In this document: positions 26,939 to 31,446 of the stretch, one piece after another | Numbering within the stretch: position 1 is the stretch's first letter | Layout: each line of letters starts with the position of its first letter | The notes under the pieces: model-generated | Seen by the model: only the letters and a program-made list of their open reading frames with translations | Told to the model about the DNA's origin: nothing | Databases searched by the model: none | Position numbers and translations under genes: made by a program | Assembly (NCBI RefSeq): GCF_040812015.1 | Contig: NZ_JBFNXJ010000001.1 | Span: forward strand, 496,001 to 560,000 | Direction of reading: 5' to 3' | Origin: Chitinivorax sp. PXF-14 | GTDB lineage: Bacteria; Pseudomonadota; Gammaproteobacteria; Burkholderiales; SCOH01 | DNA length: 64,000 bases

Positions 26939-26966
26939 AAATGGGGTGAGCCATGCTCACCCCATT
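26939..26966 (-). terminator. intrinsic terminator, probably once that of etf-QO
   Basis: AAATGGGGTGAGC and GCTCACCCCATTT form a perfect 13-bp stem with loop CAT. On the minus strand TTTTCTTTTG follows, so it terminates minus-strand transcription. It lies only 14 bases beyond the 3' end of the group II intron, so before insertion it would have stood just behind the etf-QO stop codon. Confidence 0.88.
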
Positions 26967-27020
26967 TGTCATCCCGCCAGTCGGGTAAGGAGATCCCCTT
27001 GCGGCAATCTCCTCCCCTCA

Positions 27021-27054
27021 GAACCGGACATGCAAGTTTCCCCGCATCCGGCTC
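27021..27054 (-). ncRNA. group II intron domain V
   Basis: On the minus strand this 34-nt hairpin begins GAGCCGGATGCGGGGAAAC and ends CATGTCCGGTTC. The paired GAGCCGGATG/CATGTCCGGTTC arms and GAAA-type loop are the catalytic domain V of group II introns. Domain VI follows downstream to 26980 and includes the stem GGAGAT/ATCTCC and the candidate branch A. Confidence 0.88.
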
Positions 27055-27103
27055 AAGCCTCTAACCAAGCCATCTCTCGGTGAAGAGACAGCCGGCAGCA
27101 CCC

Positions 27104-28783
27104 TCATGCGGCGTGCGCATGGTGGAGTTCCCGGTGGCAATTGGGGTGCAGTAGCACCAGATTATCCAGCCGATTACTACCCCCATCCGTGGTACAGACA
27201 AGGTGGTGGACATCCAGTGATTCCCACGAGGTAAACAACTGGCGGCAAACCGGACAATTGCCGTTTTGCCTTGCCAATAGCGTCGCCAAACGACGGCGAT
27301 GCGACACTGACGCCAGCATGCGGGCGGTAGCCCGCACCTCGAAGTAATGCTCCCATTGCCGATCAAAAGGCGTGGCTTCCGCCTTGATCTTGGTATGACG
27401 CCGAATGGCGTTATCACTGGCGTAAACCAGAGAGCACCATTGGTGTTTCCCATCGGCATCGATGCGATCAGTTGCAAAGGTCCATTCACGTTGGGCGATC
27501 CGATGGAAGTAACGCTGCTTGATCCATCGCTTACTCTTGGTTGAATGGCGTCGACTGGCCCAGCGCCACAGACAACGATAAATCTCACTGTCCACCCGAG
27601 CAAAGGTTTCGCTCGCCACCTGACTGCGGTGATAATTCGCCCAGCCCCGGATCACAGGATTGAGCAGGTGGATCAGGTCAGTTTGTGTTGCCTGTTTATT
27701 GGATCGGATGATCGAGCGGACACGGGTCAAGAACGCTTTCGCATTCTTCTTCGATGGTTTCACCAACAACTTGCCGTCGAATTTCCGCACAGTCCAACCC
27801 AACAAATCAAATCCAGCCTCAACATGGGTGATACGCGTCTTTTCCATCGATAGCGTCAACCCGCGTTCCGCCAGAAAACGCGTTACGACAGTCAAAACTT
27901 GCTGCTCCAGCAATTCTTTCGAACGGCCAGTGATGATGAAATCGTCCGCATATCGCACCAGATTGATCTGATGCCGTCGCCCTTTGGCTGAGTCTTTAGG
28001 TCCAAATTCGGCTTGCATGGCCGCCTCCAGCCCATCCAGCGCCATGTTAGCGAGGGTGGGGGAGATGATGCCGCCTTGGGGCGTGCCAGCGGTCGTTTGC
28101 TGAAACGCACCAAATTCGATCACACCCGCCTTGAGCCACTTACGTAGCACCTCCCGATCCATGGGGATGTGTGTCAGTAGCCAATGATGGTCGCTGTGAT
28201 CGAAACAGCCTTGAATGTCGGCCTCCAGAACCCACACCGGAGAAAACGATCGTGACAGTGAAATATGACACTGAATAATCGCGTCCACAGTGGCCCGTTC
28301 GCGTCGAAAGCCATAGGAATTGCCATCGGCCAAGGTTTCCGCCACCGGTTCCAAAGCCAGCAGATACAGCGCCTGCATGGCTCGGTCCAGCATAGTCGGA
28401 ATCCCTAACGGTCGGCGCTTGCCATTGGCTTTGGGGATGTACACCCGCCGCAATGGTTTGGGGCGATAGCCCCGTCGTGTCAACCGTTCGATGGCACACC
28501 ATTTCGCCGTAGGCGTAGACCAGATTTCTCCGTCCACACCTGGCGTGCGTTTACCGCGGTTCTCCGTGACGCGCTTGACTGCTAATGCGCGCCCGCCGAA
28601 CGACCGGACCAACCAACGTTGCAGGGTCAAAACCCTGTGCCATTGACCGGCCCGTGCTGCCTTGGCGATTCGTAACTGCATCCCTCGGACATTCCGGTGC
28701 ACACGGTACCAATCGATCTGGTGCCATGCTATTGGAACGTCGGAGAACGCAGATTCCACTGATTCCAGTGAAACGCTAGTCAT
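27104..28783 (-). CDS. ltrA: group II intron-encoded reverse transcriptase/maturase with HNH endonuclease domain
   Basis: 559 residues from ATG 28783, chosen because AGGAGG lies 5 nt upstream; an open frame 15 codons longer has no such site. Reverse transcriptase blocks run from about residue 85 ([18 protein letters not shown]) through [17 protein letters not shown] to the catalytic YADD at about 278-281. The maturase X domain follows ([20 protein letters not shown]). The C-terminal HNH domain has [24 protein letters not shown] and HPNCHREL. All catalytic motifs look intact, so the intron could still splice and move. It is encoded in domain IV. Confidence 0.95.
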
Positions 28784-29802
28784 GCAATCCTCCTGATAGA
28801 CAGATTTGACCCATTCAGGAGAAAGCATGCCCCTTGCGGGGTGGCTTTCACCCCGATTGGGACAGTAGGTTGAATGGCGAAAACCGTTAAGCTTGCGCCT
28901 TCATAGAGGGTAAACAGGTCTGCTCGCCAGGAGAGACCAGATGGACGTCAGCCCGCTTTCGCGTGAGGTAGAACCCCCTATCCGAACCATTACAGCTCGG
29001 CGTTCGCTTCTTCCATCCTCCTATTCCCGCACCGTCAACAGTGTTCCTTGCGGTTCACCTGCCACGAGGGTAACGATACGGGCTTGCCGTGTTCCATTGA
29101 TGCGACACGAATGGGGTAGGCCCTGTCATTCCGCCGGTGGTACCACATCAGCGTGTCCCGAATGTAAAGCGAGACAACTTGACCACGTGCCTATTTGGCT
29201 CAAGCCTATCAACTGCGTTTGGCTTGTTCCCGATAACGACGTTTATCGACAGTTCACTTGCGTTGACCATACCATCCAGCCTAGCCCCTTAACCGCCTTG
29301 CAGTTGGCAGCATCCCAGTCAGCCTCTCACGAGGACGACCAGCCCGAAACTTCCAGGGGGTACATTGTCAGGGTGCTTCAGACCAATCCGTTACCGGAAA
29401 AGCCCTACCCCTAGGCTACCACTGGCTGAACAGTGGGTTCCCTGCCACACGGACTGTTTGTGTGGTGGAACAATCACATCAACAGCTTACGCCACTTGGG
29501 CTTTGCTGCAGCAAACGACAACAGAATGACGATGCCAGAGTGGCATCCCGAGGGGACAACTGGGTAGGTTGCTACGGGGTGAGTGGGCGCCCGGTAGGGC
29601 GCCCTATTAACAGGGGCAATGAGCAAATAAGCTGCCACACCACCCGACGAGTCGGATGCCGATGGCATTGCAAATATGCTATCGCACATCAGATCGTCTG
29701 CTGATTTCTACTCCTTCAACTCTCGCAATGAGAGCCTAACCCATTGAAACCAATGGATTAAAGTGGTGCTAGGCCAGCGGACCTAAGCGACTCACGTCGC
29801 AC

Positions 29803-31446
29803 TTACATGTTCGGGTAGTTCGGGCCGCCGCCGCCTTCGGGCACCGTCCAGTTGATATTCTGGGTCGGGTCCTTGATGTCACAGGTCTTGCAGTGCACGC
29901 AGTTCTGCGCGTTGATCTGCAGGCGCGGCGCATCAGCGCCTTCCTTGACGATCTCGTATACGCCAGCCGGGCAGTAGCGCTGCTCGGGTGCGTCATACTT
30001 GGCGAGGTTGATCTTGATCGGCACGCCGGCGTCCTTGAGACGCAGGTGGATGGGCTGATCCTCTGTATGGTTGGTGTTGGAGATGAACACCGACGAGAGC
30101 TTGTCGAAGCTGATCTTGCCATCCGGCTTCGGATACTCGATCTTCGGCATTTCGCTGGCGGGGCGCAGGCACTCGTTATCCGCCTTGGTGTGGTGGAAGG
30201 TCCACGGTAGCTTGACGCCGAGGCAGTGCATCCACATGTCGAAGCCGCCATACAGAGTGCCGCCCCACATGCCGAACTTGCTCAAGCCAGGCTTCACGTT
30301 GCGGACCTTGAACAGGTCGTCGTACACCCAGGACTTCTTGTAGGCATCGATATAGGGCGTCAGCTCGTCGTGGCCGTTGCGGCCCTGATTGACGACTGCA
30401 TCGTAAGCCGCTTCGGCGGCCAGCATGCCGGTCTTCATCGCATTGTGGCTACCCTTGATGCGCGGCACATTGACGAAGCCCGCCGAACAGCCGATCAATG
30501 CGCCACCCGGGAAGGTCAGCTTGGGCACCGATTGCAGGCCGCCTTCGTTGATCGCGCGTGCGCCGTAGGAGATGCGCTTGCCGCCTTCGAAGAAGCTGCG
30601 GATCGCCGGATGCGTCTTGAAGCGCTGGAATTCGTCGTAGGGCGAAAGATGCGGGTTTTCGTAGTTGAGGTGAACCACGAAGCCAACCGCAACCTGGTTG
30701 TTTTCCAGGTGGTAGAGAAAGGAGCCGCCGCCGGTTTCGCTGCCCAGCGGCCAGCCCTGCGAGTGCATGACGAGGCCGGGCTTGTGCTTGGCCGGGTCGA
30801 TTTCCCACAGCTCCTTGAGACCGATACCGAATTTCTGCGGATCGACGCCATCGCGCAGATTGAACTTGGCCTGGATTTCCTTGGCCAGCGAGCCGCGCAC
30901 GCCCTCGCCGATGAAGGTGTACTTGGCGTGCAGCTCCATGCCGGGCGCGTAGTCGCTCTTGTGCTCGCCATCGCGGCCGATGCCCATGTCGCCGGTGGCG
31001 ACCCCCTTGACCGAGCCGTCTTCGTGGTAGAGCACTTCAGCGGCGGCGAAGCCCGGATAGATTTCCACGCCGAGGTTTTCGGCCTGGGCCGCGAGCCAGC
31101 GGCAGACGTTGCCGAGACTGACGATGTAATTACCGTGGTTGTTCAGCAACGGCGGCATCAGCTTTTCCGGGAAGCGCTTGGCGCCAGTCTCGGTCAGGAA
31201 CAGGAACTGGTCCTCGACGACGGGCGTATTGAGCGGCGCGCCGAGCTCTTTCCAGTTAGGGAACAGCTCGTTCATGGCGATCGGGTCCATCACCGCACCG
31301 GACAGGATGTGCGCGCCGACTTCGGAGCCCTTTTCCAGCACGCACACGCTGATTTCCTTGCCGTTCTGTTCCGCCAGCTGCTTGAGTCGAATCGCGGCGG
31401 AGAGGCCTGCGGGGCCGGCGCCAACGATTACGACGTCGTATTCCAT
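29803..31446 (-). CDS. etfD: electron transfer flavoprotein-ubiquinone oxidoreductase
   Basis: 547 residues from ATG 31446 ([20 protein letters not shown]). The membrane-associated enzyme takes electrons from reduced ETF and passes them to ubiquinone. The FAD Rossmann motif GAGPAG opens the protein; [18 protein letters not shown] follows; the C-terminal [4Fe-4S] domain has RYCPAGVYE and [19 protein letters not shown], giving the cluster cysteines. It ends [10 protein letters not shown], the family terminus. The coding frame is open further upstream but the GAGPAG start is standard. It lies far from etfBA yet has the same operator core at 31597-31609. A group II intron starts at the base after its stop codon. 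Confidence 0.96.

Follow-up and report, generated by a model that had tools for sequence, protein, structure and literature searches.

A probable group IIB intron directly behind the stop codon of etf-QO in Chitinivorax sp. PXF-14

We found a group II intron exactly between the stop codon of etf-QO and the terminator that follows this gene in our window, a 64,000-nucleotide stretch of Chitinivorax sp. PXF-14 contig NZ_JBFNXJ010000001.1. With a probability of about 93%, by our estimate, it is a mobile IIB group II intron, which reverse-spliced into etf-QO directly after the stop codon and was guided there by EBS1, EBS2 and EBS3 pairings. At the level of sequence comparison, the boundaries of the intron, its pairings with the exons, the intactness of its parts, its kinship and the recurrence of its insertion site are established. 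The kind of intron is already known, and it is the etf-QO site and the diverged family member that are new.

On the minus strand, the TAA of etf-QO (29805-29803) is directly followed by GTGCGAC (29802-29796), the intron ends in CCGAC (26984-26980), and the terminator stem begins at 26967. The earlier note had proposed this arrangement, with a 13-bp same-strand terminator 14 bases beyond the intron; the arrangement and the stem of 13 pairs both held, and the distance had to be corrected to 12 nt. The features are as follows:

29803-31446, minus strand: etf-QO coding sequence (5' exon), including the TAA at 29805-29803; ends NYPNM-stop
26980-29802, minus strand: group II intron, 2823 nt, delimited by Rfam, the 5' start shared with relatives and the EBS/IBS pairings
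29476-29782, minus strand: large 5' insertion within domain I, some 20 nt away from the 5' splice site (approximate limits)
29285-29437, minus strand: domain I core block, RF02012 (group-II-D1D4-7), Rfam 101.4 bits (gathering 34)
27104-28783, minus strand: intron-encoded protein, 559 aa, ATG at 28783; RVT_N, RVT_1, GIIM and HNH, YADD intact
26980-27056, minus strand: domains V and VI, RF00029, Rfam 66.0 bits (gathering 40)
26939-26967, minus strand: intrinsic terminator, 13-pair stem with T-rich tail TCTTTTGTGC, 12 nt beyond the intron
29803-29808, minus strand: IBS1 ATGTAA, last Met codon plus stop, pairs 6/6 with EBS1
29162-29167, minus strand: EBS1 TTACAT in a hairpin loop, from family alignment and covariation
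29811-29815, minus strand: IBS2 CCCGA, pairs 5/5 with EBS2
29229-29233, minus strand: EBS2 TCGGG, top of all positions tried
29129, minus strand: EBS3 A, in a column that forms Watson-Crick pairs with the first 3' exon base
26979, minus strand: IBS3 T, first 3' exon base, pairs with EBS3 A29129

The two ends fit the group II pattern of GUGYG at the 5' and AY at the 3' terminus (GTGCGAC ... CCGAC), and the Rfam matches to domain I and to domains V and VI both score above gathering. The A at 26986, placed from the general pattern of group II introns, is presumably the branch point. Within the intron lies a reverse transcriptase/maturase gene, whose ATG is preceded by AGGAGG (28794-28789, minus strand) and whose product matches TIGR04416 (365.2 bits, cut-off 300), PF00078, PF08388 and PF01844. 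Both this protein and domain V look intact, in agreement with the earlier note, and taken together the element looks like a complete group II intron. The host gene carries the domains PF05187 Fer4_ETF_QO (174.5 bits) and PF21162 ETFQO_UQ-bd (147 bits); its ATG at 31446 (MEYDVVIVG) was picked by similarity to the ETF-QO protein of a Bacterioplanes sp. MAG (JACUUC010000059.1, locus L036), and the open reading frame list begins at an upstream TTG. The terminator at 26967-26939 presumably belongs to etf-QO. A terminator scan of the region gave 3 matches, about what shuffled sequence gives (mean 2.7); inside the intron it found a single weak same-strand hairpin-plus-T, at 27913-27899.

We compared the intron with relatives from a protein scan of genome contigs, which returned 537 proteins, of which the best 80 were kept; among the relatives compared, identity to the etf-QO intron protein reaches 59-60 percent at best. 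The 83 loci with a domain I match that we tabulated come from genome contigs, plasmid loci, one locus of a further genome and the window, and four further loci (L100, L102, L109, L113) had no such match. The 5' end lies at least 150 nt before the domain I block in 53 of the 83 loci and 44-84 nt before it in 26, and 4 offered no usable 5' exon, either because no 5' end was found (L071, L073, L086) or because it coincides with the start of the record (L032). The EBS1 covariation analysis (78 rows) excluded these four as well as L059, which is a contig lacking a 5' exon, and L004, L068 and L079, in which the 3' end is missing, were also left out of the EBS2, EBS3 and terminator counts (75 rows). 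The 5' ends of the window intron, L035, L056, L076, L078, L087, L104 and L105 were chosen by hand among several GTGYG motifs before pairing was scored. Six others (L039, L054, L067, L068, L084, L092) were added by hand at groEL stop codons, and the groEL counts are therefore favoured. Some rows are near-copies, such as L080-L082 from one genome.

In the etf-QO intron, 365 nt separate the 5' end from the RF02012 block, versus 44-84 nt in the 26 relatives mentioned above. According to the accessible part of PMC4028801, from which the class name CL1 is adopted, a large 5' insertion characterises a subset of CL1 introns, and the etf-QO intron carries such an insertion. Folding of 29802-29440 gave a z of -4.0. 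The insertion resembles those of the other introns weakly (best nhmmer E 0.0011 among 53 sequences), and a convincing full-length alignment with the groEL intron insertions was not obtained. A branch with SH-aLRT 91 in a quick tree of 82 proteins separates 24 introns that lack the insertion from the window intron, whose protein groups with the insertion-bearing IIB/CL1 subset; two introns that lack a large insertion, L095 and L116, also fall on the side of the window intron. The same tree places the window intron and L036 as sisters, with an SH-aLRT of 88 against the tool's mark of 95 and with long end branches.

The exon-intron pairings carry most of the assignment. TTACAT occurs only once in the intron, at 29167-29162, in a loop that aligns with the TACATC of groEL introns, and its position in the family alignment and its covariation bear out the suggestion of the earlier note that it is EBS1. 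Over 78 introns, EBS1 and IBS1 form on average 5.77 of 6 pairs in register, compared with 1.6-3.2 when the exon is slid by 1-3 bases. For the 35 distinct EBS1-IBS1 pairs the mean is 5.51 of 6, versus 2.57 in 10,000 shuffles that ignore relatedness (maximum 3.49). A few rows pair poorly (L034 with 3/6; L069, L111 and L114 with 4/6), and these may have wrong ends or be decayed copies. EBS2 reaches a mean of 4.28 of 5 pairs over 36 introns, and the best other register 2.78. The EBS3 column pairs in 70 of 75 introns (33/36 non-groEL, 37/39 groEL-type) and the next best column in 17/36; exceptions include L104, which is unpaired, and L045 with G-T. Since both columns were chosen as the best of all columns, these scores are selected maxima, and their support lies in the gap to the next column. 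The etf-QO intron thus combines complete EBS1-IBS1 and EBS2-IBS2 pairing with the EBS3-IBS3 pair of the IIB/CL1 subset. Pairing of the 3' exon through EBS3 and IBS3 is a feature of the IIB and IIC types. Allowing G-U, 115 places in the whole window, counting both strands, pair 6/6 with EBS1, so that pairing alone does not single out the site. Only 3 of them also pair 5/5 with EBS2, and GTGCG follows one of these 3, at 29802; pairing and intron start together are therefore unique.

Genomes in which the site is empty point in the same direction. Among 60 genomes compared, our own included, 34 gave a match, and 32 of the 33 others match the etf-QO end, with a domain V match only in the remaining one (G037). 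The intron segment 29794-29289 found no match in the 59 other genomes, for which at most five candidates per genome were scored. In 11 intron-free relatives, ATG always precedes the etf-QO stop, which is TAA in 7, TAG in 2 and TGA in 2. In the same family, all four genomes without the intron (L003, L005, L016, L023) have, by eye, a hairpin and T-run within about 60 nt of the stop, which is the layout that removal of the intron would leave in Chitinivorax, with the terminator directly behind etf-QO as the earlier note had predicted. Outside the family, in L008, L009, L011 and L012, no obvious terminator was seen by eye in the 160 nt after the etf-QO stop.

The most direct challenge to the boundaries concerns the 5' end. 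Because the Rfam domain I block begins 365 nt inside the intron, the earlier note was justified in its concern that the ribozyme might start at 29450 (GTGTGGCAGGG), which would leave 29451-29802 as ordinary DNA between etf-QO and the intron. The GTGTG at this position also fits a loose GTGYG, lies 13 nt ahead of the domain I block and would be in keeping with the 26 relatives that start only 44-84 nt ahead of theirs. The pairings nevertheless argue strongly against it: upstream of 29450 only 2/6 bases pair with EBS1 and 2/5 with EBS2, and of five GTGYG start candidates tested, 29802 alone gives 6/6 and 5/5. Moreover, groEL-type introns start at the stop codon, 314-874 nt ahead of the domain I block, and the segment 29451-29802 is absent from the intron-free relatives examined, all 11 of which continue with different sequence after the etf-QO stop. 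A start at 29450 is thus very improbable, and the reading of the earlier note came through both outcomes that it had named as damaging to it. Even less credit is due to a group IIC intron with the terminator as its address. According to the accessible part of PMC4424553, IIC introns insert behind intrinsic terminator motifs and count among those that lack an endonuclease domain. A terminator does adjoin the etf-QO intron, but it lies 12 nt downstream of the intron and not upstream, the intron-encoded protein contains an HNH domain, and the EBS2 pairing covaries.

A further alternative, near the view of the earlier note, regards the insertion as regulatory, with the level or stability of the etf-QO mRNA depending on splicing. 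The unspliced message would indeed contain 2.8 kb of additional 3' untranslated region with a second reading frame, and IBS1 together with the 5' splice site would probably lie under a terminating ribosome. Neither form of the RNA lacks the stop codon or the terminator, however, and the sequence gives no sign of such a dependence, which makes this reading unlikely, though less so than the two above. The stronger statement of the earlier note, that normal ending of the etf-QO transcript depends on splicing, was overstated. The stop lies upstream and the terminator downstream of the intron in the same RNA, in cis, whether spliced or unspliced, and the claimed dependence therefore does not follow; splicing decides only whether the 3' untranslated region includes the 2.8 kb.

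The position of an intron behind a stop codon is not confined to Chitinivorax. In the Bacterioplanes sp. MAG, L036 occupies the identical site, NYPNM TAA|GTGCGAC, behind the ETF-QO gene. Insertion point and EBS1 are the same, and the L036 protein is the closest among the best 80 of the 537 relatives, whereas its 5' end lies 692 nt from the domain I block instead of 365 and its own EBS3 (A) does not pair with its own first 3' exon base (G). Another intron, L045 in a Sedimenticola MAG, follows immediately on the TAG of a DsrE-like gene, with stop, intron and terminator in a row. Forty introns have a 5' exon ending in GATGTA, by which we defined groEL-type in the tree and in the terminator counts, and 38 of them follow a groEL tail (all except L070 and L083). 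The groEL introns cut inside the stop codon, TA|A, and many start with GTGCGAC right there. A terminator-like site was found within 130 nt downstream of 27/39 groEL-type and 2/2 etf-QO introns, 2/5 other insertion-bearing introns, 1/5 tRNA introns and 0/24 insertion-free introns; of 830 random 130-nt stretches, 13 contained one. A stop codon followed by intron and terminator is thus a frequent layout in this lineage (29/41 groEL-type and etf-QO introns).

Searches for further copies at etf-QO relied on exact patterns. With AAYATGTRRGTGCGAC, which misses variants, no other etf-QO insertion was found in 398 other genomes sampled from the order. The second match among the 399 genomes that include our own, in G250, was rejected as chance: 3016 bases gave no domain I or domain V profile match, and the frame reads, by eye, MDSNHVNM-stop, unlike the etf-QO tail. 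A longer exact pattern matched the window only among 369 genomes of the class (own genome included; overlapping with the order sample), and a plasmid search with 29380-29802 gave no match.

Several related loci showed peculiarities of their own. Five introns with the 5' exon CCAAGC in betaproteobacterial genomes (L099, L103, L104, L108, L115) interrupt tRNA-Gly(CCC), which aragorn detected in 5/5 joined and 0/5 unjoined flanks; in L122, L123 and L132 the 5' exon is the same or nearly the same. A circular 2837-bp Pseudomonas aeruginosa 'plasmid' (L032, CP075775.1, 1-2837) consists of exactly one intron, from GTGCGAC to CCCGAC, which an intron circle, a tandem arrangement or the assembly procedure could each explain. 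L059 (1-3460) has identical 99-base ends around one 3361-bp intron unit, with a head-to-tail junction of CCCGAC to GTGCGAC, for which the same three origins come into question. Behind the groEL intron of L064, at about 6308, another intron start and another domain I match follow head to tail, and TTACATC was not found in this second intron; the stretch downstream of the intron in L047 and in L049 resembles the 5' part of another intron. The groEL site may thus have been hit more than once in L064, L047 and L049. Four introns at the groEL stop (L039, L054, L068, L092) have unusual first bases, such as ATGCGAC and GCGCGAC, in place of GTGCGAC. In several groEL intron 5' insertions a hairpin is changed on both arms, for instance CCGATATTCGGG with CCCGAATATCGG, which to the eye looks like covariation.

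We propose that the etf-QO intron belongs to a lineage best known from groEL, whose members carry a large 5' insertion and settle at gene ends. Intron RNA and protein would recognise the last Met codon, the stop and upstream bases through EBS1 and EBS2, and reverse splicing would then place the intron behind the TAA, with EBS3-IBS3 spanning the first base past the cut. The C-terminal Met codon of a conserved gene, together with its stop codon, would serve as the address, in keeping with the related intron that occupies this site in a distant bacterium. Inserted at this position, the intron would leave both the coding part of etf-QO and its terminator untouched. It would be transcribed together with etf-QO, its protein would help it to splice and to copy itself, and splicing would restore the short 3' end from stop to terminator. 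The intact parts suggest that the intron splices, that it is mobile by retrohoming and that it does its host no harm.

With etf-QO, a respiratory gene joins the conserved genes that carry an intron at the stop codon, and the Bacterioplanes copy shows that distant hosts share the use of the etf-QO site. A pair of copies in hosts so far apart suggests a dedicated etf-QO homing site, but two are few, and EBS3 of L036 is unpaired. It is possible, though we would not favour it at even odds, that the etf-QO stop is a dedicated homing site common to distant bacteria and occupied by a separate line of gene-end introns, that Met-stop hexamers of conserved genes were repeatedly adopted as an address, with the register differing between groEL (GATGTA) and etf-QO (ATGTAA), and that the 5' insertion is associated with a location at gene ends or in tRNA genes and not with the interiors of reading frames. 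The intron could also be used to find out whether a splice site is disturbed by a terminating ribosome that covers it.

A group II intron in the termination codon of Azotobacter groEL (Avi.groEL / A.v.I1) was reportedly described by Ferat, Le Gouar and Michel in 2003, and CL1 (IIB1) introns with a 5' insertion are said to have been treated by Michel, Costa, Doucet and Ferat in 2007. In the accessible passages of PMC4465626, the Azotobacter intron belongs to a monophyletic subset that shares a large insertion at the 5' extremity. Judged from its title and these citing passages, it agrees with the etf-QO intron in the large 5' insertion and in its location at a gene's termination codon. The CL1 (IIB1) insertion introns, as far as the available text describes them, likewise carry hundreds of inserted nucleotides near the intron start, whereas the etf-QO intron occupies another site and encodes a diverged protein. 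Our literature search, whose coverage excludes most subscription journals, found no publication on an etf-QO intron among the titles and abstract openings listed. The groEL introns compared here share with the etf-QO intron the position of EBS1, the Met-stop target, a related protein and, often, a terminator behind the intron. They differ in that they cut within the stop codon (TA|A), whereas the etf-QO intron follows the complete TAA, and in their EBS1, which reads TACATC instead of TTACAT. The two sites offer a clean comparison, in which EBS1 and the cut are displaced together by one base on a shared Met-stop motif.
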